A stretch of 63,522 bases of DNA from a virus: positions 1 through 63,522 of the IMG/VR virus record IMGVR_UViG_3300013132_000051; one strand, 5' to 3'. The notes beneath the pieces are model-generated. The model made no database searches, had not been told where the DNA came from, and worked only from the letters and a program-made list of their open reading frames with translations. The position numbers were made by a program, and so were the translations under genes. This document shows positions 1,420 to 46,949 of the stretch, one piece after another (positions within the stretch are counted from its first letter, which is position 1; the number at the start of each line of letters is the position of its first letter).

Positions 1420-2334
1420 ATGAGCGACCTTCGCGCCCGTGTAATTCGTCTCGCCCGCGCCCGACCGGAGCTTCGCGCCCAACTCCTCCCGCTCGTGAAG
1501 GAAGCGCGGGTCACGGAGGAACTACTCCGGGTCAAGTACGTCAACCTCGGCGATTTCGGCGGGACGAACCCGATCCAGGACTCTTGGCTCCTGGAGGTCG
1601 CGGGTCCGACGTTCGACTATCGGGACGAGCTAAAGAGGCTCGGTCTGCGATGGGACCCCTCTTCCAAGACTTGGTCGCTTCACGCCACGCTTCCGAAGTA
1701 CGGGAACCCTCGCCTGGTCGCGGAGTACGAGAAGATCCGTCGGCTACAGAAAGCCGCGTACCCGAAGCTCCAGGAGCTAGCCGAAGAGCACAACCGCGTC
1801 GCTGAGGAAGCGAACAAGGGCCTCCGCCCCAAGGATCCGCGAGAGCTAGCAGAGCTAATCGACCGCCTCGACCGGATGGAGCCCGCGCTCGGGCGGGCGG
1901 GACTCGTCCTAGAGCGTAGGTTCCCTAGCCGGTATGACGCTTGGGAGCCCTTCGTTCTGATCAAGGGCAACACCTACCCCCTCGCGAACCTCATGAAGAG
2001 CCACGGGTTCCGCTGGAACCCGCGCGAGAAGGCGTGGTCGATGGCTGCGGCGGAGTTCTCCGTCGTCGGTCCGAAGTGGATGGGCGAAGTCGCTCGGTCG
2101 TTCCCCGCCGCCCCTCCGAAGGATGAGGGCGTCGGCGTCTTTACGGCGATGAGCAACGCGGAGCTGAAGAAGTGGATCTCCCGCTACATCGCGGGCTACG
2201 ATCCCGAAGGCTTCTACATGGACGGCGAGCGTTCCGATACGGAAGCCTACGCCTACTACTTCCGTTACCTCCGGGGGCTCAAGCCCGCCGAGCAAGACAA
2301 GCAGAAGCAAATCTACGAGCGTTACGACGTATGA
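1420..2334 (+). CDS. leader-bearing protein with two GFRW-type repeats
   Basis: This 304-aa protein opens with the shared leader (residues 1-30: LRARVIRLARARPELR, then LLPLVK). Two short repeats follow: LKRLGLRWDPSSKTWSL around residues 71-87 and LMKSHGFRWNPREKAWSM around 191-208. Each has the form L-x2-x-G-[LF]-R-W-[DN]-P-x2-K-x-W, which resembles the small GARWD..KWYVP module of DUF5710-type proteins. A charged helical stretch (about residues 105-150) lies between them. The 3' end overlaps the next gene by ATGA. The next gene has the same leader and one copy of the repeat. Role unknown; the leader suggests it is sorted with the other leader proteins. Confidence 0.8.
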   Translation: MSDLRARVIRLARARPELRAQLLPLVKEARVTEELLRVKYVNLGDFGGTNPIQDSWLLEVAGPTFDYRDELKRLGLRWDPSSKTWSLHATLPKYGNPRLVAEYEKIRRLQKAAYPKLQELAEEHNRVAEEANKGLRPKDPRELAELIDRLDRMEPALGRAGLVLERRFPSRYDAWEPFVLIKGNTYPLANLMKSHGFRWNPREKAWSMAAAEFSVVGPKWMGEVARSFPAAPPKDEGVGVFTAMSNAELKKWISRYIAGYDPEGFYMDGERSDTEAYAYYFRYLRGLKPAEQDKQKQIYERYDV

Positions 2335-2762
2335 GCGACCTTCGATCCAAAGTGATTCGCCTCGCCCACGCGAAGCCGTCGCTGCGCCCGCACCTTTTGC
2401 CGCTGCTAAAGACGGCGAGGGTTTTTCCCACGCATGAGCAATCAGACGTGCTCATCAACGCTGGGATTACGTTTCTTGATTACACGCCGTTCGACAATGA
2501 GGTGAGGATCGGGGAGGTTCAGGGCAACGACCTCGCTCGGCTCATGAAGAGCTTTGGATTCAAGTGGGTTCCGAAGGACCGCGAGTGGGTCATCCCCACT
2601 AAAAAGTTTGAAGCGACCGCCGACAAGTGGGTGAAGCGCCTCTCGCAGCTTCGACCTCTGCCTCGCAAGCCGGGGCGCAAAGAGCATGACCGGAGCCTCC
2701 TTGAAGAGGAGCGGAGACGCGAGTTGGATCAGGACGACGAGCTTGACTCTGACTACCCGTAA
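2331..2762 (+). CDS. leader-bearing protein with one GFRW-type repeat
   Basis: The ATG at 2331 overlaps the upstream stop (ATGA). The 143-aa product has a near-ideal leader (residues 1-30: LRSKVIRLAHAKPSLR, then LLPLLKTARV). A single repeat, LARLMKSFGFKWVPKDREW, follows at about residues 68-86 and matches the second repeat of the preceding protein. The C-terminus is highly charged (EEERRRELDQDDELDSD) and probably disordered. The two genes look like tandem paralogues of different length. Function unknown. Confidence 0.8.
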   Translation: MSDLRSKVIRLAHAKPSLRPHLLPLLKTARVFPTHEQSDVLINAGITFLDYTPFDNEVRIGEVQGNDLARLMKSFGFKWVPKDREWVIPTKKFEATADKWVKRLSQLRPLPRKPGRKEHDRSLLEEERRRELDQDDELDSDYP

Positions 2763-20998: not shown

Positions 20999-21882
20999 TC
21001 CGCGAAGCCCTACTATCTGAGATGGCAGGGCGGGTCGCGGCTCGTCATGAGATCCGCATCGCAGCGAAGCGGGCTTGCTTTTCAATCAACCGCACCGCCT
21101 CGGCCAACGGCCTCCTAGAGCGGTGCCTCGTCGCGATGGCAGAGGGCGCGCTAGTACCGGAGGACGGCTCCCCGGTACGGACGGCGGGGTTCGCCAACCT
21201 CGCCCGACGGCTCAAGCAGATGGCCGTGATGGTCGGGAAGTTCCCGAAGCTGTGGGAGCGCGTCAAGGAGTTCTTGGGCGTCGAGAGTCTCGCCGACCTC
21301 CCCGGTCGCATCACCGAGCTAGCCAAAGAAGGCTACAAAGCCCTCAAGCGCCTCATCGACAAGGCGTTCTCCGTGTGGCCTCTGAAGCTCTACACGCTCC
21401 CGGAGAGCAAGCTCTTTAGCTTGAACGCTCTCCTAGAGAAGATCGCTGACGCGAGCCCCGCGTTCAAGAATTTCCTTACTGATACCGTGAAGCCCCGCGT
21501 AGACCAGTTCGACGCATGGCTAAAGAAGTACCTCCCGGCTATCTCCAAGGTCGTGATGGTCGCGATTTACGTTTGGATCTGGCTCAACGTCGTCGAGTTT
21601 GAGTGGGATCTGAAGGGCATCATCGACGCCGCTACCGGCACGATCTCGCTTTCAGACTTGCTCACGAGCCTACCGGGGTCGATTCTCGGGGCGTTGATGA
21701 ACTCGCTCGGCCTCGGGACGTTCACGCTCCTACCGGCGGCGTATGCCGTGCGGTTGGCGCTCGTTATCTCCCGCCGCTACGTCACTTGGACGGGGAGCGG
21801 GTTCTCGTTCGACGCTGAGAAGCTCCGGGAGGACTTCAAGTTCAGCCCTGCCGTTGAAGAGCTTATCCCCGCGAAAGTTTGA
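20995..21882 (+). CDS. membrane-associated virion-operon protein, 295 aa
   Basis: The GTG at 20995 overlaps the upstream TGA (GTGA). The first 150 residues are basic and helical. Two strongly hydrophobic stretches follow, KVVMVAIYVWIWLNVV (about residues 182-197) and SILGALMNSLGLGTFTLLPA (about 228-247), with a third, weaker stretch to about 260, so I expect two or three membrane helices. Its last codons lie in a 33-bp sequence repeated exactly at 23983. As the last gene of the virion operon, next to the leader-bearing RelA/SpoT gene, it could be an ejected or host-membrane protein. That role is inference. Confidence 0.6.
   Translation: MIREALLSEMAGRVAARHEIRIAAKRACFSINRTASANGLLERCLVAMAEGALVPEDGSPVRTAGFANLARRLKQMAVMVGKFPKLWERVKEFLGVESLADLPGRITELAKEGYKALKRLIDKAFSVWPLKLYTLPESKLFSLNALLEKIADASPAFKNFLTDTVKPRVDQFDAWLKKYLPAISKVVMVAIYVWIWLNVVEFEWDLKGIIDAATGTISLSDLLTSLPGSILGALMNSLGLGTFTLLPAAYAVRLALVISRRYVTWTGSGFSFDAEKLREDFKFSPAVEELIPAKV
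21846..21878 (+). repeat. 33-bp direct repeat, copy 1
   Basis: This copy is the 3' end of the membrane-protein gene (encoding PAVEELIPAK). It is identical over 33 bases to 23983-24015 and the match stops on both sides. A leader gene starts nine bases downstream. Confidence 0.95.
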
Positions 21883-21886
21883 GACT

Positions 21887-23965
21887 ATGGACGAACTAAG
21901 ACTCCAGACGATGCGACTCGCCTATAAGAATCCGTCGCTCCGGTCGCGGTTGATTCCGTTGCTGAAAGCCGCCGCCGAAGAGAGTCTCGTTGACGCTCCC
22001 GACACGGTATCCGCAGGCATCGAGCGCCAGGTCCGGTCGAAGCTCGGTCCGCAGGCTCTGGGCTTGATCAACCTCTATCAACAAGTCCGTCTCATGCACG
22101 ACGGAGCGCCCGGACCCGACGAAGGTCTCGCCCAGGCCTTCCGGACGGAGACAAAACTGTTTGCGCGGTCGATGATGCGAAAGCTCGACGGTCCGGTCGC
22201 CGCTCCCGCTGCTGAGACGCTCCTAAACCAGATTCAGAGCCTCAAGCCCCTCCTCCAGAAAGTCGAGCGGGGTTCCAGTACTGCCGTCTATCGGTTTCTC
22301 GGCCCACGTCTCGCCCAAGCAATCGCGGGCGCTCTCCAGGCCTCCGACATTGGAGTCGCGCTCCGACCTAGCCCGGACCAGGTCAAGTGGCCTATTCTAA
22401 AGATCACGAGCGCACCCGATCCGATCGGCGAGAAGACCTACTTCACTGAGGAAGAGATCGACCGACTGCCGGAAGCGGGTGCGGTAAACCAGCCTGGAAG
22501 CAAAGACAAGTTCGCTCTCAAAGCCCAAGCCGACGAGGCCCACGAGCAACAGCTCGACTGGCTAAACCGGGGCCGGGGTATCGACGCAGCTATCGGGGCT
22601 CAGGTCCTTCGCGGGGACCAGGGAGCTATTCCTGCGGATGACAAGGTCGATAGAACTCCTGATGGCAGATTCCAGACGAAGGACAAAGACGGGAGACCTC
22701 GTACCTTCAACTCCAAGGAGGAAGCTGACTTCTTCGCTGAGGGCGTTGGTAACGAGAAGCGCGCTGAGTATTTCAGCAACCTCCCTGAAGGACCGATTGT
22801 CCTAATCGGACCGAAGAAGGCGATTACGGGACGGGCCCAGGAGAAAGTAGACGCGAAGTACGGCGGGGACTGGTCGAAGCTCAAAGACTTCGTTCGCGCC
22901 TCCATCATCGTAGACCGGATCGACCAACTCGACGACCTGATGAAGAAGCTCCGGGCGTCTGGGCTAAAGCTCGCGGCGAAGCCTGATGACCGCTTCTCCA
23001 AACCGACCGAAGCTGGGTACCGAGACCTGTCGATGAACGTCGTGTACCCGAACGGTCACGTCGGTGAGCTCCAGATTCACCTCAAGCCGATGATCCAGGC
23101 GAAGGAGGGTTTCGGAGGCCACAAGCTCTACGAGAAGACCCGCAAGTTCTCAACCCAGGCTAAGAAAGAGGGTCGTTCGACGGTGACTCTTCAAGAGCAG
23201 ATCCTCATCAATGACCTGAACGACAAGCAGAAACAGCTCTACGGCGCTGCCTGGAGAGAGATCCAGGGCGAAAAGGGCGCTCTCCGGAACTACGTCGAAT
23301 CTGGGGGCATGGGAAAGCTATCTTTCGCCAGCCAGACCGTTCAGAACAAAGTCCAATACTTCCGGTATGACGGCGAGGCCGCTTACTGGGAGCGGGGGAA
23401 GTTCCCTATCGTGATCACCGACCGGGGGGAGCAGGTCGAATACAACCTCAAGAAATTCTTTACCAAAGCGATCAGCCTCACGAAGGATGAGTACGCGAAG
23501 CTCCGAAAGTCCCGCAACGCCAGCTCTTCTGGAGACTCTGACATGACCCTCCGTTCCAAGCTGATTCGTCTCGCCCACGAGAACCCGTCTCTCCGGGGGG
23601 AGATTCTTCCCCTGCTGAAGTCAGCTGCTTCCGGTCTGAGTCCAGAGGAGTTCCGTAACGCTTGGACAGCGTTGGAGAAGCTCGCTGATGAAGCCAGGCT
23701 CCCTAACCAAGTCAAAAGAAGACTCGATAGCTTCCTACACGGGAACCCGCAAATCGTTGAGCTACCTGACGGGCTCGACTCGCTTCTCAAGTACCTCCGA
23801 ATCGAGGTTAGTTGGTCCAGTCAATGGGACCACGCGGTCTTGAGTTGGGTCTGGACCACACCTGACAACAAGCCCAACACTCGGGTCATCGGCGAGATCG
23901 GAAATCCCAGCCCTGGTCAATGGTACTGGAAGGTCGCCTCCGGCGGGGGATCTCGGTACGTCTGA
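21887..23965 (+). CDS. leader-bearing RelA/SpoT-fold nucleotidyltransferase, fused to a second leader module
   Basis: The ATG at 21887 gives 692 aa. Residues 1-30 are a divergent leader (LRLQTMRLAYKNPSLR, then LIPLLKAA). Residues about 308-420 form a RelA/SpoT-like domain: KDFVRASIIVD at 333-343 (D334 and R337 align with D-x2-x-R), GYRDL at 377-381, and ELQIH at 394-398 (E394 aligns with the catalytic Glu of ExQ). Known members transfer pyrophosphate from ATP to GDP/GTP, to adenosine nucleotides (Tas1), or to tRNA CCA ends (FaRel2-type toxSAS). No HD hydrolase or TGS/ACT domain is visible, so synthesis only is expected. From residue 553 (a Met at 23543) a second, complete leader starts, followed by a paralogue of the next gene. 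Parts of the cargo DNA are less GC-rich than the neighbours. I infer an effector, perhaps carried in the virion; the exact reaction is unknown. Confidence 0.75.
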   Translation: MDELRLQTMRLAYKNPSLRSRLIPLLKAAAEESLVDAPDTVSAGIERQVRSKLGPQALGLINLYQQVRLMHDGAPGPDEGLAQAFRTETKLFARSMMRKLDGPVAAPAAETLLNQIQSLKPLLQKVERGSSTAVYRFLGPRLAQAIAGALQASDIGVALRPSPDQVKWPILKITSAPDPIGEKTYFTEEEIDRLPEAGAVNQPGSKDKFALKAQADEAHEQQLDWLNRGRGIDAAIGAQVLRGDQGAIPADDKVDRTPDGRFQTKDKDGRPRTFNSKEEADFFAEGVGNEKRAEYFSNLPEGPIVLIGPKKAITGRAQEKVDAKYGGDWSKLKDFVRASIIVDRIDQLDDLMKKLRASGLKLAAKPDDRFSKPTEAGYRDLSMNVVYPNGHVGELQIHLKPMIQAKEGFGGHKLYEKTRKFSTQAKKEGRSTVTLQEQILINDLNDKQKQLYGAAWREIQGEKGALRNYVESGGMGKLSFASQTVQNKVQYFRYDGEAAYWERGKFPIVITDRGEQVEYNLKKFFTKAISLTKDEYAKLRKSRNASSSGDSDMTLRSKLIRLAHENPSLRGEILPLLKSAASGLSPEEFRNAWTALEKLADEARLPNQVKRRLDSFLHGNPQIVELPDGLDSLLKYLRIEVSWSSQWDHAVLSWVWTTPDNKPNTRVIGEIGNPSPGQWYWKVASGGGSRYV
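23543..23965 (+). other. C-terminal leader module with possible internal start
   Basis: An in-frame ATG at 23543, with GGAG ten bases upstream, opens a complete 140-aa unit: leader (LRSKLIRLAHENPSLR, then ILPLLKSAAS) and a small domain ending GEIG...GQWYWK...SRYV. The neighbour at 24032 has the same architecture. It may be made separately as well as within the 692-aa protein, or it may be a formerly free gene fused by loss of a stop codon. Confidence 0.6.
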
Positions 23966-23982: not shown

Positions 23983-24015
23983 CCCTGCCGTTGAAGAGCT
24001 TATCCCCGCGAAAGT
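23983..24015 (+). repeat. 33-bp direct repeat, copy 2
   Basis: This is an exact non-coding copy of 21846-21878, lying between two leader genes and 16 bases before the ATG at 24032. It marks duplication of the end of the membrane-protein gene together with a leader gene. Confidence 0.95.
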
Positions 24016-24031
24016 GTAGGAGTACGCGACC

Positions 24032-24466
24032 ATGACCCTCCGTTCCAATCTCATCCGCCTCGCCCACGCGAACCCGTCTCTCCGGAAAGACTTGCTCCCC
24101 CTTCTGAAGTCGGCGGGTAAGGGTCCGAACCAGAAAGACATCGAGTACGCGATTGTCGCGTTCGACGGGCTTTTCCACAGCGCGAAGATTCCGGGTGGTC
24201 TAGAAACTCGGTGGTTAGGAAACGGGAAGGACGTTGTCAACGGCGGGATTTTCGATCTCCCGGTTCCTAGAGGGTTTGAGTCCCTATTCAAGAGCATCTC
24301 AGTCGAAGTCCGATGGGTAAATCCGGAGTACGCCCGCGTGAGTTGGAAATACACCCACCCGAATGGCGGTCACAACGGATCCGAGATCGGCGAAATCGGG
24401 CGAGATCCGAAAAACGGAAAGTGGTACTGGAAGAACAACGCGCACGGGGGGCAAAGTTACGTTTGA
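24032..24466 (+). CDS. leader-bearing small protein, paralogue of the fused module
   Basis: This 144-aa protein has the leader (residues 1-30: LRSNLIRLAHANPSLR, then LLPLLKSAGK). A domain of about 110 residues follows, containing a FDLPVPRGFESLFKSISVEV strand-helix segment and ending SEIGEIGRDP...KWYWKNNAHGGQSYV. The end matches the C-terminal module of the preceding protein (GEIG, WYWK, YV). The start has GGAG ten bases upstream. It ends three bases before a convergent gene. Function unknown; a partner or immunity factor for the RelA/SpoT protein is possible but unsupported. Confidence 0.78.
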   Translation: MTLRSNLIRLAHANPSLRKDLLPLLKSAGKGPNQKDIEYAIVAFDGLFHSAKIPGGLETRWLGNGKDVVNGGIFDLPVPRGFESLFKSISVEVRWVNPEYARVSWKYTHPNGGHNGSEIGEIGRDPKNGKWYWKNNAHGGQSYV

Positions 24467-25755: not shown

Positions 25756-26367
25756 ATGACCCCCGGCACGCACAAGCTCCCGCCGCTCCCCTACGAGTAC
25801 AACGCGCTAGAGCCGTTCCTCAGCGAGAAGCTGATGCGGCTTCATCACGACAAGCACCACGCCGCTTACGTCGAGGGGCTCAACGAGGCCGAGCTAGCTC
25901 TCGCGGCGGCGCGGGACTCGGGCGACACCCTGCTCGTGCCCTATTGGGAGTCGCGTCGGGCGTTCAACGAGGGCGGGCACGTCCTGCACTCGATCTTCTG
26001 GCGGGGCATGACCCCGGTCGGAGGCGGGGGCGAGCCGGGGGGCCTCCTCGGGGCGCTCATCGAGCGCGACTTCGGCGGCTACGAGAAGTTCCGCGCTGAG
26101 TTCACCGCCGCCGCGAAGGGCGTCGAGGGCTCCGGGTGGGCGATGCTCTTCTGGAAGCGGGGGATGTCGGGCGACCACCTAGAGATCGCCGCCGTCCTCA
26201 ACCACGAGAACCAAGCCCTGTGGCAAGGCGAGGTCGTGCTCGTCTGCGACGTATGGGAACACGCCTACTATCTGGACTACCTGAACGAGCGGGCCGAGTG
26301 GGTGGACGTGTTCCTCGACAACCTAGTTGATTGGGAACAGGCCGCTTCCCGTCTCCTCCGCCGCTAG
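25756..26367 (+). CDS. sod: Fe/Mn superoxide dismutase
   Basis: This 203-aa protein has the full Fe/Mn-SOD signature. H30 (in LHHDKHHAAYV) is the first metal ligand, H78 (VLHSIFW) the second, and D165 and H169 come from DVWEHAYYLDY. Y38 matches the active-site Tyr and W126-x4-W133 fits the family core. At the outer-sphere position that holds Gln in E. coli MnSOD the sequence reads LNHEN (H150), as in some archaeal and mycobacterial enzymes, so metal preference cannot be assigned. It would convert superoxide to peroxide in the host cytoplasm; no signal peptide is seen. SOD is rare in phages. It stands alone on the plus strand between minus-strand accessory genes. Confidence 0.93.
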   Translation: MTPGTHKLPPLPYEYNALEPFLSEKLMRLHHDKHHAAYVEGLNEAELALAAARDSGDTLLVPYWESRRAFNEGGHVLHSIFWRGMTPVGGGGEPGGLLGALIERDFGGYEKFRAEFTAAAKGVEGSGWAMLFWKRGMSGDHLEIAAVLNHENQALWQGEVVLVCDVWEHAYYLDYLNERAEWVDVFLDNLVDWEQAASRLLRR

Positions 26368-26472
26368 TACGGGTATCCCGTCAAAGTAACGAGCCGGTGG
26401 GCGGTTTCTGTTGCTTCCCGTCCTTCACGCCCGACCGAAGCAGAGCAGCGTCAGGTCGAGCGACGGCTCTAT

Positions 26473-27123
26473 TTAGAATCTGCTGCTTCTAGGGTATCCC
26501 AGATACCGTAGAGACCTAACGTAGTCATCGTATTGAGCATCTTCATATGCTGTTTCTTTCATTATGTCAATATACTCATTGATAGACTTATGACGATCCT
26601 CGAAGGGGAAATCCTTAAAGATTATTGGGTTGGGAACGTCAACAAATACATTAAACGCCGTCTGATCTAGTTCGTCTGCGGCGTCTCTGGCACTCACGCC
26701 GGTTTTCTCAGCGGCCTCAATGTATTTGAAAATGAGACTCTTGATGCGGGGGGCTTCCATCATAAAATTGATAGTGCCACTATTCATCCTCACGTTGAAA
26801 GGGTCTTTCCTCTTTTCATAGAGATACTGCATATATTCCCCGCTAATCCCCAACTCCCCGTCTTGGGTACGCGGGAGGTCATCAATTTCAGAATTTTCAA
26901 GAATCTCTAGCGACAAAGCTACCAAGTAGGGTTCCCAATCAGTCTTCCGAACCTCACCAAGGATTTGATTGAACAGGCGGTTTGCCTCTGGGTTATCGAG
27001 AAGCCACTTGTGAGGCTTACCGGCAACCCGAGAGGCGCTCTCCTTGAGCAGCGGCAAGAGGGCCGGACGGAGGTCGGGGCGGGAGTGGGCGAGCCGGATG
27101 ATGCGGGACCGGAGGTCGGACAT
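26473..27123 (-). CDS. leader-bearing protein with AT-rich cargo
   Basis: The ATG at 27123 gives 216 aa. Residues 1-30 are a canonical leader (LRSRIIRLAHSRPDLR, then LLPLLKESAS). The rest is an alpha-rich domain (LFNQILGEVRKTDWEPYLVA, IKSLIFKYIEAAEKTG, INEYIDIMKETAYEDAQYDD) that I do not recognise. Base use changes sharply: 27061-27120, which encodes the leader, has 46 G/C of 60, whereas 26521-26580, near the 3' end, has 19 of 60. This looks like foreign cargo joined to a resident leader. It converges with the SOD gene across about 105 bp holding only a weak ACGGG/CCCGT hairpin. Confidence 0.8.
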   Translation of the reverse strand: MSDLRSRIIRLAHSRPDLRPALLPLLKESASRVAGKPHKWLLDNPEANRLFNQILGEVRKTDWEPYLVALSLEILENSEIDDLPRTQDGELGISGEYMQYLYEKRKDPFNVRMNSGTINFMMEAPRIKSLIFKYIEAAEKTGVSARDAADELDQTAFNVFVDVPNPIIFKDFPFEDRHKSINEYIDIMKETAYEDAQYDDYVRSLRYLGYPRSSRF

Positions 27124-27164
27124 AACTTTGCCTTTCGATAAGGAAGATAACCCGCCCCTCGGAG

Positions 27165-27410
27165 CTACTTCAGCGGGCCGTTGCGAAGCCCGTCGCACTC
27201 GCACTCGCGTAGCACGATGTCCACGCCTCGCCCGGTCGCTAGGCACCGGGGGCACGGGACGTAATCGTACCTGTCCCGTGCCAACGCGAACCGCCAATAC
27301 ACCCGCTTCACGGCGAACGGTAGCGCCTGAGCCCCGATGAACCACACGCGGCAACACGCCGGGATCCCCGAGTGCTTCCCGCAAACCCAATCGTAGCGGG
27401 CGTACCTCAA
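27165..27410 (-). CDS. small Cys-rich protein, 81 aa
   Basis: I start it at TTG 27410, whose TTGA overlaps the stop of the methyltransferase gene. The 81-aa product has Cys clusters CGKH...CC near the N-terminus and CPRC...CEC near the C-terminus, so a zinc-binding fold is likely. Family unknown. Confidence 0.6.
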   Translation of the reverse strand: MRYARYDWVCGKHSGIPACCRVWFIGAQALPFAVKRVYWRFALARDRYDYVPCPRCLATGRGVDIVLRECECDGLRNGPLK

Positions 27411-28012
27411 AACAAGTCGAGGACCGTCGGCTCCTCGTCTCCTAGCTGGTTGCCGAAGCGGTCCCAACCCTCGGCGGGCGCTCCGCGAGCGAACATCTCT
27501 AGTCTCCGCACTGGACCGTAGAGGCGTCCGATGCGGGAGCGGACCTCAACCGGCTTCGCGCTGTGTTCCCCGCGAGGCGAGAACACCGTCTGCTGAACAG
27601 TCTCGTCTAATAGGGGCAGGGGCCTCCCCCTCGCCTCAGTCGAACCCGCGATGACTAGCTCGACTAGCGGCTTCACCACCGAAGGGCGCACGCCTTGGGC
27701 TCCGATGGGGGTTCCATCGCTCCGAGTCTTGACCCAGACGAAGGGCACCCCTCGGAAGTGGAACCCCCACGCCCGCAGTAGGTCGATAGCCGCGTCGAGG
27801 CGGGGGCACGTCGCCCACATGAAGACGACGGCTCGGTCGGCGCACTTGCGGCGGACGGGCAACGCCATCAACGCCGCGTCGTCCATGAGCGAGTAGTGCT
27901 TGCCCGCCGCCGCCATCTTGTCCTCGGCCCCGTAATAGAGCCACGGCGGATCCGTGTAGACGATCTGATATGAGGCGTCCGGCACCGCGCTGAAGTCGGC
28001 GTAGTCGGTCAC
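27407..28012 (-). CDS. MT-A70 family adenine methyltransferase
   Basis: This 201-aa protein has the catalytic DPPW at residues 21-24 (VYTDPPWLYYG), then a KHYSLMD segment and a VVFMWATCPRLDAAIDLLRAWGF helix-strand unit. It ends with RLEMFARG...GWDRFGNQL, all typical of small MT-A70 N6-adenine methyltransferases. Phages use such enzymes to modify DNA against restriction; the target site cannot be read from sequence. It lies five bases downstream of the HD-hydrolase gene and overlaps the next small gene by TTGA. Confidence 0.88.
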   Translation of the reverse strand: MTDYADFSAVPDASYQIVYTDPPWLYYGAEDKMAAAGKHYSLMDDAALMALPVRRKCADRAVVFMWATCPRLDAAIDLLRAWGFHFRGVPFVWVKTRSDGTPIGAQGVRPSVVKPLVELVIAGSTEARGRPLPLLDETVQQTVFSPRGEHSAKPVEVRSRIGRLYGPVRRLEMFARGAPAEGWDRFGNQLGDEEPTVLDLF

Positions 28013-29621: not shown

Positions 29622-30395
29622 ATGTCTGACCTTCGTTCCAATCTGATTCGCGTAGCGAGCACCCTTCCGGCGGGCGACCCCGGTCGGAGCGACATCCTCC
29701 ACGTCATTCGCGAGAACGACATTCGCCTCGCCTTCGGCAAGGCGGCGGCGTCCAAGCTCCCGACCCGCCTCGTCGCGGGCTACGACGGCTTCACGGACCA
29801 GATCCGCGAGCTGGCCGACACCGAAGCGAACGTCAAGCGCCTTCAGGCCGAGATCGACGCGCTCACAGGCGACCTCTCCAAGAAGCTGAAAGACGCCGAG
29901 AAGGGCTACAAGGACGCCGTCGAGGCGATCAAGGACGCCTACAAGGAGAACCTCTCGGCTCAGGGCAACGTCATCATCGAGCGCAAGACGAAGCTCGTTG
30001 AGGCGCAGGCCAAGCTCAAGGTCGTCGGCGTCAAGGGCACCCTCAACTCGATCCAAGAGGATATGCTCGCCGCCGTCACCGAGAAGTACGGCGCGGAAGT
30101 CGCCGCCTTCATCAAGGCGACGCAAGACGCCCTCCAAGAGCAACACCAAACGATGCGTATCTCGCTCGACGGCTTCGTGCTGGAGGCGCGCGAGGCGGCG
30201 GACAAGACGGCGGCGAGCAAGACCGCCCTCAGCTTCAACATCGTCGGCGTTCTCGCGAAGTTCCGCGACTACATCAAGAAGGGCTGGTCGAAGATCGTCG
30301 AGGTCGCGAAGGCGGCGACGGACGTGATCCTGGGCCGCTCGGCGAAGGTCGAGAAGGCGCACACCGAGTTCTTGAAGGCGCTCGGCTCCGTTTGA
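29622..30395 (+). CDS. coiled-coil protein with variant leader
   Basis: The 257-aa protein starts SDLRSNLIRVASTLPAGDPG then RSDILHVIREND. The first eleven residues match the leader family, but the second half differs (STLPxGxxxR...L..I). Residues about 60-125 form a long coiled coil (RLQAEIDALTGDLSKKLKDA and on). Residues about 205-245 hold an amphipathic VGVLAKFRDYIKKGWSKIV segment. GGAG lies 12 bases before the ATG. A strong hairpin follows. It may be a structural or internal virion protein; this is inference. Confidence 0.75.
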   Translation: MSDLRSNLIRVASTLPAGDPGRSDILHVIRENDIRLAFGKAAASKLPTRLVAGYDGFTDQIRELADTEANVKRLQAEIDALTGDLSKKLKDAEKGYKDAVEAIKDAYKENLSAQGNVIIERKTKLVEAQAKLKVVGVKGTLNSIQEDMLAAVTEKYGAEVAAFIKATQDALQEQHQTMRISLDGFVLEAREAADKTAASKTALSFNIVGVLAKFRDYIKKGWSKIVEVAKAATDVILGRSAKVEKAHTEFLKALGSV

Positions 30396-44293: not shown

Positions 44294-44938
44294 TTAGACG
44301 ATAACCGAAACGGTCGTCCCGACCGAGGAAGCCGGTCCGAGCGGTCCCGCTGGGGTAACGATACCTGTTCCGGGGAGCGTTATCCCTGTAGAGAAGAATG
44401 TAGAGATACCCGAGGCCAACGCCGAATACAGAACGGGGTTAGAGGCCCCGGAGCCCCCGAGTACCGCCGCGAGAGCCGAGTGGGCGCTCTGGAGAGCCGT
44501 GATCAGGGTCGCGGTATTCGCTGAGGCAACGAGCGAAATATCCGTGCCCTGAGCGACGCCCGCTGAGACGCCCTGGTATTGGAGTGACCCGCTCAACGAC
44601 GAAGTCAGACCCAGCGTCAACGCGCTACCGAGCCGGGAGACCGTCGTGCCCGCGAGCCCCGCTCCCTGGATCGCCGAGGTAATCAAAGCCGGGTCCGCGT
44701 TGAACTGCATGAACCCGAGCACGGTCCCCGCCCCGACGACGCCGGTAGAAACTCCCTGGACCACGACGTTGCCCGGAACAACCGCCCACGTCGCTACCGC
44801 GTTACCGATGGCGTCGCACAAGAGGGGCCAAGTATTCCCTCCGGGGAAGCTCGCCGCCCCACGAATCGCCGACGAGATTGCCGTAGCCGGAACCATCACG
44901 CTAACCGGCGCAAAGGCGGGGAAACGCCCCCGCCTCAT
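44294..44938 (-). CDS. probable virion protein, 214 aa
   Basis: The ATG at 44938 overlaps the methyltransferase stop (ATGA); an inner ATG at MVPATAISSAI is an alternative start. The protein is Ala/Gly/Ser/Thr-rich and hydrophobic without clear membrane helices (LCDAIGNAVATWAVVPGNVV, GVSTGVVGAGTVLG). I have the impression of similar short proteins beside large phage structural genes. No function is visible. Confidence 0.6.
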   Translation of the reverse strand: MRRGRFPAFAPVSVMVPATAISSAIRGAASFPGGNTWPLLCDAIGNAVATWAVVPGNVVVQGVSTGVVGAGTVLGFMQFNADPALITSAIQGAGLAGTTVSRLGSALTLGLTSSLSGSLQYQGVSAGVAQGTDISLVASANTATLITALQSAHSALAAVLGGSGASNPVLYSALASGISTFFSTGITLPGTGIVTPAGPLGPASSVGTTVSVIV

Positions 44939-46737
44939 TCATCGTTGAACCCCAAGAGGTCGTCTAGGCTGGAGGGAGTCCCGGCTTCCGGGGAGGGCTT
45001 CGCGACCGGGGCTTCCTCGTCCCACGGGTTGGCGATACCGCCCTTGGCCCGGAGGGCGTGATGCTCGATGCGTTGGCGAGCGATCTCTAGGTACTCGTCG
45101 GATTGCTCGATGCCGATGAAGTTGAACCCCTCGTACATCGCCGCGCAACCCGTACTACCGCTGCCCATGAACGGGTCGAGTACCGTCCCGTCCGGTTGGG
45201 TAACTAGCCTCGCAAGCCAGCGCATGAGGGCGATGGGCTTAACGGTGGGGTGAAAGTTCGACGCGGTGCGCCCGCCCCGGTTGCGGGGGTTGTTCGCGCC
45301 GGGGGCGTCGGGGTCCCTCGACTCATCTACTTGGCGCGAGGAGCTACCCGTGACGCCCGCGTCGCGCTCCGAGCGGTTCGCCTTCGCCATGTACCGGAAC
45401 GGGGCCTCCTCTGCCGTGTAGCTGAACTGCGAGAAGAATCGGGACGCGCCCCCGCTGTCTCCGTAAAGTGTACCCGCATCTTCGTTTTGCCGCAGCGATC
45501 CGTCCGCGTTTCCACTAAGCGCAAATCCGGTCGCCGCACCCGTCGAAGATCGGCGGCGATGACCGCTGATCACGGCCTTTCCGCTCGTCAGCGTGCCCGT
45601 CTGCTCGTCGAGTGCCCTCACGGCGCACCCGTCGGCGCACTCCCACACGGGGACTTCTTCTTCACCGCCGCCGACGGACTCGTAAGGGTGTCCCGCCCCG
45701 TCGCCAAACGGCTTCATGCCGTCGGTGAAGCGGTTGATGACCGGGGCTTCAACCGTCTTTGTGCCGATTTGCTTACAGTCGGGAGTGTGAACGAGGACGA
45801 TATTGGCGGGCCAGCGGCCCGAAGGCTGTTGAAAATCACCAGCCCCTCCGTGCTTGTATCGCCAGTTTTCCGTTCCGTCGTGACGCCCTTTACGTCCCGG
45901 CGAAGGATGATCGTGATACGGCATAGTCGCCGCGTCGGGGCAGTTTGGATCGATGCACTGGTACGAATCCCCGTCTTCGGACTTGTACGCGCCACCGTTG
46001 AGGTTGTCCGCCGTTTCGACCCGACAACCGTCGATGTTGAGAGCACCCGTGCCGTGGGCCATGACGTTCTCCGCGACCGTGCCGATGAGGGGCTTCCTGA
46101 ACATGAGTACCGGCTCATGTGCGGGCTTGAGGGCTGTTCCCCAACCCTCCCATTGACGAGCGGCGTCGGTGGCAGGGGCGGTGATGTTGAGATTGGCGCT
46201 GATGTCGTATTGCTGAGCGTTGTAGTTGTAAGCCGTTCCGTTCATCGGGTTTGGCCTGCGACTGGCATACTCCGACCGCCCCACCACCTCCCGCTCCGCA
46301 CCCGCCGCCTTGTCGATGGCCTTGCTCACGTCGAGCGACTTGGGGAAGCCGCTCCCGAATTGGTAAGCCAAAATTCCTTCCACTCGGATCGCATCCCGCG
46401 AATCGAACCCCGCGAGCCGGATAGCGACCCCCATGAGGTCCTGCGTGCGGGTTCCGGCAAACGCAAGTAGGTATCCTCCGGGCTTGAGCACCCGGAGGCA
46501 CTCTCTCCACACCTCGGGTCCGGGCACGAAGGCGTCCCACGACTTGCCCATGAAGCCGGACCCCTTGGGGGAGTAGGGCTTGCCGTCGAGCCACGCCCGA
46601 AGCGCCTCGGCTACATCGTCAGCGTCGTGATTGGACAACCCGTAAGGCGGGTCGGTCACTACCGCGTCTACGCTCTCGGAGGGGAGCGTCTTGAGGACCG
46701 CAAGGCAATCCCCGTGGTGTAGCTTGTACTCGGGCAT
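44935..46737 (-). CDS. DNA methyltransferase, DPPY type
   Basis: ATG 46737 overlaps the upstream stop (TGATG) and starts MPEYKLHHGDCLAVL. The catalytic DPPY is at residues 29-32 (VVTDPPYGLS). The AdoMet-binding DPFMGSGSTG follows near the C-terminus (521-530), preceded by HPTVKP. This DPPY-first order defines beta-type amino-methyltransferases (N6-adenine or N4-cytosine). Between them lies a long target-recognition region of about 400 residues with Cys pairs (CIDPNCPDA, ECADGCA). At 600 aa it is larger than simple orphan methyltransferases. No restriction nuclease gene is next to it, which suggests DNA protection. Confidence 0.88.
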   Translation of the reverse strand: MPEYKLHHGDCLAVLKTLPSESVDAVVTDPPYGLSNHDADDVAEALRAWLDGKPYSPKGSGFMGKSWDAFVPGPEVWRECLRVLKPGGYLLAFAGTRTQDLMGVAIRLAGFDSRDAIRVEGILAYQFGSGFPKSLDVSKAIDKAAGAEREVVGRSEYASRRPNPMNGTAYNYNAQQYDISANLNITAPATDAARQWEGWGTALKPAHEPVLMFRKPLIGTVAENVMAHGTGALNIDGCRVETADNLNGGAYKSEDGDSYQCIDPNCPDAATMPYHDHPSPGRKGRHDGTENWRYKHGGAGDFQQPSGRWPANIVLVHTPDCKQIGTKTVEAPVINRFTDGMKPFGDGAGHPYESVGGGEEEVPVWECADGCAVRALDEQTGTLTSGKAVISGHRRRSSTGAATGFALSGNADGSLRQNEDAGTLYGDSGGASRFFSQFSYTAEEAPFRYMAKANRSERDAGVTGSSSRQVDESRDPDAPGANNPRNRGGRTASNFHPTVKPIALMRWLARLVTQPDGTVLDPFMGSGSTGCAAMYEGFNFIGIEQSDEYLEIARQRIEHHALRAKGGIANPWDEEAPVAKPSPEAGTPSSLDDLLGFNDE

Positions 46738-46949
46738 CAGAAAATCTCCAAACCGTACTCGACGAGTAGCTCGTGGAGCAGCTTTCTCGCCCATTCTGCC
46801 CGCTCAGCCTCGTCGCCCTCCCGGTACTTCGCGATCTGCCGGAGGCGCTGGTCTAGCTCTGCGACGACCGCTTGCCACTTCGCTCCGTCGAGCGCCGCTC
46901 GGTGCTCGGCTTCTTCGTCGGGTAGAGAGAACTCAAGAGTGGCTTTCAC
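46737..46949 (-). CDS. conserved small phage protein, 70 aa
   Basis: MKATLEFSLPDEEAEHRAAL, then WQAVVAELDQRLRQIAKY, matches a small helical family common in phage genomes (MKA.leF.LPe....h..A..G). Its function is not known to me. It is coupled to the methyltransferase by TGATG. Its ATG lies two bases from that of the divergent GIY-YIG gene. Confidence 0.78.
   Translation of the reverse strand: MKATLEFSLPDEEAEHRAALDGAKWQAVVAELDQRLRQIAKYREGDEAERAEWARKLLHELLVEYGLEIF

Follow-up and report, generated by a model that had tools for sequence, protein, structure and literature searches.

A phage gene joining a high-GC shared tag to a lower-GC body: a probable chimera at a site of gene exchange

Introduction

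The internal proteins IPI, IPII and IPIII of phage T4 carry a capsid targeting sequence (CTS), a short conserved sequence present on diverse small phage proteins, and across related phages this one constant leader is followed by diverse bodies (PMC3012670, PMC9026906). The T4 CTS comprises about 10 residues, is strictly N-terminal and is removed by the gp21 protease, and packaging has been shown for T4. A second described group consists of the polyvalent proteins, which are long, multidomain proteins defined by their domain combinations, and in which ART and RelA/SpoT domains occur on phage proteins that are likely packaged with the DNA (Iyer et al. 2017, PMC5512222). Finally, mosaic phages exchange genes at short conserved sequences, and T4 recombination across 2–10 bp has been reported (PMC9391042).

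Here we describe a gene found in a 63,522-nucleotide stretch of viral DNA (IMG/VR record IMGVR_UViG_3300013132_000051), which is referred to in its full length as the window. The reading we favour, and consider fairly probable, is that this gene is a chimera in which a resident high-GC tag is joined to a lower-GC body, and that the tag is both a shared label and a place of recombination; it probably docks the protein, and packaging is a guess at where. The features discussed are collected in Table 1.

Table 1. Positions of the chimeric gene, its parts, the other clear tag copies and the neighbouring dismutase gene in the window.
Feature	Position	Strand	Properties
Tag A, before 304-aa protein with weak DUF5710-like match	1420..1506	+	
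Tag B, before 143-aa protein	2331..2417	+	fused with A into one hybrid in relative G016
Tag C, start of 692-aa protein with weak RelA/SpoT match	21887..21973	+	
Tag D, inside open frame of 692-aa protein (residue 553)	23543..23626	+	
Tag E, before 144-aa protein	24032..24115	+	cargo similar to that after tag D
Fe/Mn superoxide dismutase (SOD) gene	25756..26367	+	in relatives, tagged genes vary at the site downstream of it
Low-GC segment, maximum-likelihood	26470..26973	.	GC 0.437 vs 0.661 around
Chimeric gene (P0001), tag plus cargo	26473..27123	-	216 aa
AT-rich cargo, codons 35-216 and stop	26473..27021	-	GC 0.45, GC3 0.51; no family match
Tag of the chimeric gene, codons 1-34, MSDLRSRIIRLAHSRPDLRPALLPLLKESASRVA	27022..27123	-	GC 0.72, GC3 0.91; E = 6.1e-14 to tag profile
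GAAAGG, ribosome-binding-site-like	27131..27136	-	7 nt 5' of ATG; read from sequence

Results

A hairpin tag on many unrelated proteins

The window contains six clear copies of the tag, five on the plus strand (A to E) and one on the minus strand, at the start of the chimeric gene. The conserved part spans 26 residues and is predicted to form a helix-turn-helix hairpin; AlphaFold2, supplied with 51 tags as an alignment, placed helices at residues 3–14 and 16–33 with a break near P16 (mean pLDDT 86). R10, P16 and P24 are among the conserved residues of the tag. The same 51 tags had no match in PHROGs and a single one in Pfam, at E = 0.065, comparison with the PDB returned chance-level matches only, and no description of the tag was found in open-access literature text. 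A possibly degenerate copy was noted in the gene at 29622-30395, whose start, MSDLRSNLIRVAS, covers no more than the tag's first half; the homologues of this gene in G005 and G024 are 69–72% identical.

A degenerate DNA pattern of the motif gave 63 hits, spread over about 35 IMG/VR records between 7 and 497 kb long. A profile made from 39 tags then matched all 37 of the records searched, although neither presence nor the profile's scores on these hits are independent observations, the profile having been built from the hits of the pattern scan. Copy numbers are more independent than presence per record: the 497-kb record had 23 tags, a 372-kb record had 18, and two others had 15 each. Among GenBank phages a single record was tagged, that of an uncultured 485-kb phage. 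A scan of 84,980 species, with a single genome per species, recovered the exact pattern in just three stretches, all from two metagenome-assembled genomes, where they could be binned phage contigs.

The fetched DNA holds 139 non-redundant tagged frames, in which the tag is N-terminal or possibly so in about 111, internal in 18 and C-terminal in 10, and several proteins carry two or three tags. Three are present in each of the proteins encoded at L083:9670-13398 (1243 codons) and L034:5447-8050 (868 codons), where the tags are followed by repeated stretches such as YLKEHPxADxxxHxV, and the protein encoded at L049:12951-13904 has a metallopeptidase-like HEVTH motif and a tag at its extreme C-terminus. 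At least 30 residues follow the tag in 129 of the frames, and these cargos are mutually unrelated to a large extent: clustering by similarity gave 73 groups, 58 of which have one member, and the total is approximate since some groups are joined solely by a second tag within a cargo. Family matches are few (DUF5710, DUF2958, DUF7007, ART-PolyVal and others), and most cargos have none. RelA/SpoT-like matches, weak and under the Pfam cut-off, were obtained for the 692-aa protein of the window and for a 994-aa protein of G004. The former (21887-23965) consists of an N-terminal tag, the RelA/SpoT-like part, an inner tag and a cargo resembling that of the next gene; since the RelA-like part stands alone in G006, as a 542-codon open frame, an origin by in-frame fusion is suggested.

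In the mechanism we propose, the tag would mark otherwise unrelated accessory proteins across a group of large phages and would most likely dock them onto a phage assembly, the leading guess being the prohead core; the body would then be packaged and delivered with the DNA to act as an early effector. That the tag directs packaging into the virion is a guess to which we give slightly less than even weight, drawn from the ART-PolyVal and RelA/SpoT-like cargos and from the shared targeting sequence of T4. Searches for a prohead protease gave no S77 match (Pfam) in 19 records, a family for which the control genomes gave none either, and no S78 match in 14 records, where the control worked. The main alternative is that the tag sends proteins to a place outside the virion, which might be a compartment resembling the phage nucleus, a site of replication or a hub at the membrane, or that it is a handle for the assembly of complexes. 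A docking motif would suit tags that are N-terminal, internal or C-terminal and sometimes present two or three times per protein better than a cleaved leader would, and for some of the families that tagged proteins match, no part in delivery is apparent. However, the few recognizable cargos include domain types of delivered effectors, and we regard a destination outside the virion as somewhat unlikely.

Tagged genes as sites of exchange

The clearest trace of recombination is in G016, where the homologue of gene B (2331) carries a hybrid tag. All informative sites in the first part of this tag agree with tag A and all later ones with tag B, with one switch from A to B that lies within a 7-nt identical stretch. 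In line with this, the upstream DNA is 0.88–0.98 identical to that of A, and the cargo 0.96–1.00 identical to that of B. As genes A and B adjoin in the window, this crossover between tags deleted one whole cargo or, in the reverse direction, inserted one. The longest exact run common to tags A and B is at most 14 nt, which makes an assembly artefact an unlikely source of the hybrid. Recombination from tag to tag has occurred in relatives of this phage, with one event between two genes of the window.

Other comparisons supply further cases. G024 and G005 have the same 78-nt tag, without a single difference, in front of unrelated cargos; conversely, G009 and G005 share a cargo protein at 88% identity while their tags are just 68% identical in DNA. 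Where orthologous cargos are 97–100% identical in DNA, the sequence ahead of the tag can be unrelated, at several loci the upstream DNA and tag are similar and the cargos differ, and between G024 and G005/G006 a short conversion-like patch is confined to the first part of the tag. Breakpoints at gene starts are frequent in mosaic phages, and the comparison covered tagged genes only; thus the hybrid tag of G016 is the one piece of direct evidence for a crossover within the tag. On the pattern of these sequences, the tags appear to act as exchange junctions. An exact 33-nt duplication (21846-21878 and 23983-24015) was also observed, with one copy shortly before tagged gene C and the other shortly before E. 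Since the gene that precedes C ends with the first copy, the tagged block flanked by the two copies may have been inserted.

The chimeric gene lies directly downstream of the SOD gene. The phage-encoded Fe/Mn superoxide dismutase has homologues in three tagged records. In G005 the same SOD is followed by one extra tagged gene of about 720 bp, which lies on the other strand and carries another cargo. G006 has no tagged gene after the SOD, and its flanks are 96% and 99% identical to those of G005. The place downstream of the SOD is therefore a variable site for tagged genes, which in itself is no demonstration of how the gene in the window arrived there. The window further encodes two predicted DNA methyltransferases (27407-28012 and 44935-46794), one of the MT-A70 type and one of the N4/N6 type with an insertion.

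Composition of the chimeric gene

An initial annotation of the window had counted 46 G/C in the 60 bases 27061-27120, within the leader, and 19 in the 60 bases 26521-26580 of the same gene, and both counts are exact. When 60-bp windows were moved over the whole stretch in steps of 10, 19 or fewer G/C were found only at 26521, 26531 and 26541. Likewise, the sliding GC profile that the annotation had proposed places the minimum for 300 bp in the cargo: the window starting at 26501 has a GC of 0.427, the lowest in 63.5 kb and about 6 sd under the mean (0.641, sd 0.036). Within the gene, the best single change point falls at codon 35, where the leader ends (2-unit support, codons 30–51); at the other end, the stop codon coincides with the low end of the best low-GC segment of the neighbourhood, and the intergenic DNA beyond it has a GC of 0.61 again. 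The gene is a compositional chimera.

The third codon positions are G or C in 31 of the 34 leader codons and in 93 of the remaining 182 (Fisher p = 6.6e-6). Third positions are almost free of amino-acid constraint, and a fall of this size there means that amino-acid bias does not explain the drop in GC. Among 126 tagged genes with cargos longer than 60 aa, from this and related phages, the difference in GC3 between tag and cargo is +0.45 in the gene described here and reaches at most +0.20 in the other 125 (mean -0.04, sd 0.10), which makes it the sole strong outlier. As the other 125 genes have no such step, foreign composition is not general among tagged cargos, and modularity in general rests on the evidence for exchange rather than on GC.

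Synonymous codons, whose usage the annotation had also proposed to examine, divide the gene in the same manner. Per codon, the log-likelihood of the tag is -1.05 under the codon usage of the window and -1.60 under that of G029, a tagged phage of 45% GC, whereas the cargo gives -1.40 and -1.13, respectively. The tag thus fits the phage group of the window itself, and the cargo fits phages with a GC3 of about 0.45–0.56; as uniform codon usage matches the cargo equally well, this placement is a compositional statement and not the identification of a donor.

Relatives of the cargo

Nothing in Pfam, PHROGs, PADLOC, NCBIfam or the PDB matched the cargo, and an AlphaFold2 model from the single sequence was unusable (pLDDT 39). 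No close homologue was found in IMG/VR, in GenBank phages, in the genomes of 84,980 species (one per species) or in the 35 tagged records. The best-scoring tagged cargo is that of G019 (IMG/VR 3300036770_002724; L031:460-1023, minus strand), which is about 26% identical. Its Smith-Waterman score of 61 was reached by none of 3000 shuffles (29.9 ± 4.8), the runner-up among tagged cargos scored 50, and the alignment is colinear, beginning shortly past the tag in both proteins. When the cargo alone was searched against the fetched loci, this gene was not recovered, and for that reason we grade it, from the sequence comparison, as a probable remote homologue. A scan with the cargo from G019 returned its own record only, and a two-sequence profile of both cargos added nothing further in 37 records. 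The G019 gene has the same layout of tag plus cargo but lacks the GC3 step (0.71 in both halves), and its GC of 0.52 is slightly under that of its genome. Since the probable homologue has a tag as well, the pairing of tag with cargo may predate the transfer into the window; if the homology is real, the cargo family was tagged earlier, and the GC step in the window reflects a later transfer.

Origin of the gene

In the favoured reading, the resident tag of a high-GC phage would have become linked, in frame, with a body encoded by DNA of about 45% GC. Recombination would take place in the coding sequence of the tag, behind which bodies could be gained, lost or swapped while the address label stays constant. 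We infer that this cargo arrived by tag exchange and that its source was a lower-GC phage. The junction would differ from that of the G016 hybrid, which lies in mid-tag: here the whole tag is high in GC, and the join is therefore at or past the tag end.

A different course of events would be that the whole tagged gene came from a lower-GC tagged phage and that its tag alone was later overwritten by resident tags through gene conversion. Tagged phages of 40–45% GC do exist (G004, G015 and G029), the probable homologue in G019 carries a tag, and the conversion-like patch between G024 and G005/G006 lies in the first part of the tag. On the other hand, no other sampled tag exceeds 72% DNA identity to that of the chimeric gene, although the window is a partial genome and a source tag could lie outside it; we consider overwriting of the tag unlikely. 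That the gene is an old resident, low in GC through its amino-acid composition or through weak selection, appears improbable: the cargo is enriched in low-GC amino acids (GC1 0.52, GC2 0.32) and the G019 homologue is likewise somewhat below its own genome, but third positions fall as much as the others, and no other tagged gene among the 126 has the GC3 step. An assembly artefact joining two unrelated sequences, conceivable in that the source is a single metagenomic virus record, is highly improbable given a join that is in frame and at the tag end, a ribosome-binding site, a stop codon where the low-GC stretch ends, GC that is normal again on both flanks and a remote homologue with a tag.

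The interpretation given in the initial annotation, recent capture of a domain from a low-GC source behind a resident leader, is in the main upheld as regards capture behind a modular tag and in part as a whole. The modularity of the leader is borne out by its presence in all 37 records (from which the profile was built), by the roughly 73 unrelated cargo groups, by the G016 hybrid, by identical tags before unrelated cargos and by gain or loss at the SOD site. For the capture itself, the break in composition and codon usage agrees with the proposal; a donor was not found, "recent" follows from composition alone, and the probable homologue already carries a tag, so that the pairing may be older. 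The leaderless cargo that the annotation had proposed to look for in low-GC phages or hosts did not turn up in the databases and genomes searched. Neither did the pattern that had been named as contrary to capture, that is, many distant homologues with the same architecture and GC profile; there is the one probable tagged homologue, without the GC3 step.

Discussion

Beyond this gene, we tentatively suggest that large phages of a broad group run an addressing system in which a 26-residue hairpin tag gives dozens of unrelated accessory proteins one destination and its DNA serves as a recombination handle for gathering new bodies from other phages. If so, the tag would sort unknown genes of large phages, since its bearers would be expected to share a common destination, and the lists of cargos would amount to an inventory of candidate proteins for host takeover or anti-defence. 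It would also provide a concrete case of one conserved coding stretch that is at once a protein module and a site of gene exchange.

By analogy, the capsid targeting sequence of the T4 internal proteins is the nearest known arrangement, and the logic appears alike. As in T4, a short conserved sequence is shared by unrelated proteins of one phage, as found in the tag census and the clustering of cargos. However, the tag is longer than the T4 sequence (26 residues, with a predicted hairpin) and occurs on up to 23 proteins per record, and its role in packaging, unlike that of the T4 sequence, is putative. It is also found in internal and C-terminal positions, and as the strictly N-terminal placement does not hold and cleavage is putative, the tag is not assigned to the T4 class. 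Polyvalent proteins resemble the present system in that some cargos, ART-PolyVal and RelA/SpoT-like, come from the repertoire described for them; the searched portion of the same text (PMC5512222) contained no description of the tag. Whereas polyvalent proteins are recognized by at least two disparate domains, the tagged proteins are mostly short and united by one tag, and the 216-aa protein of the window, which lacks any domain match, does not belong among them. With mosaic exchange at short conserved sequences the tags have in common that breakpoints fall in conserved stretches with unrelated DNA on one side. Unlike in ordinary mosaic exchange, the conserved stretch here encodes protein, recurs many times in a genome and remains joined to the body that is exchanged.
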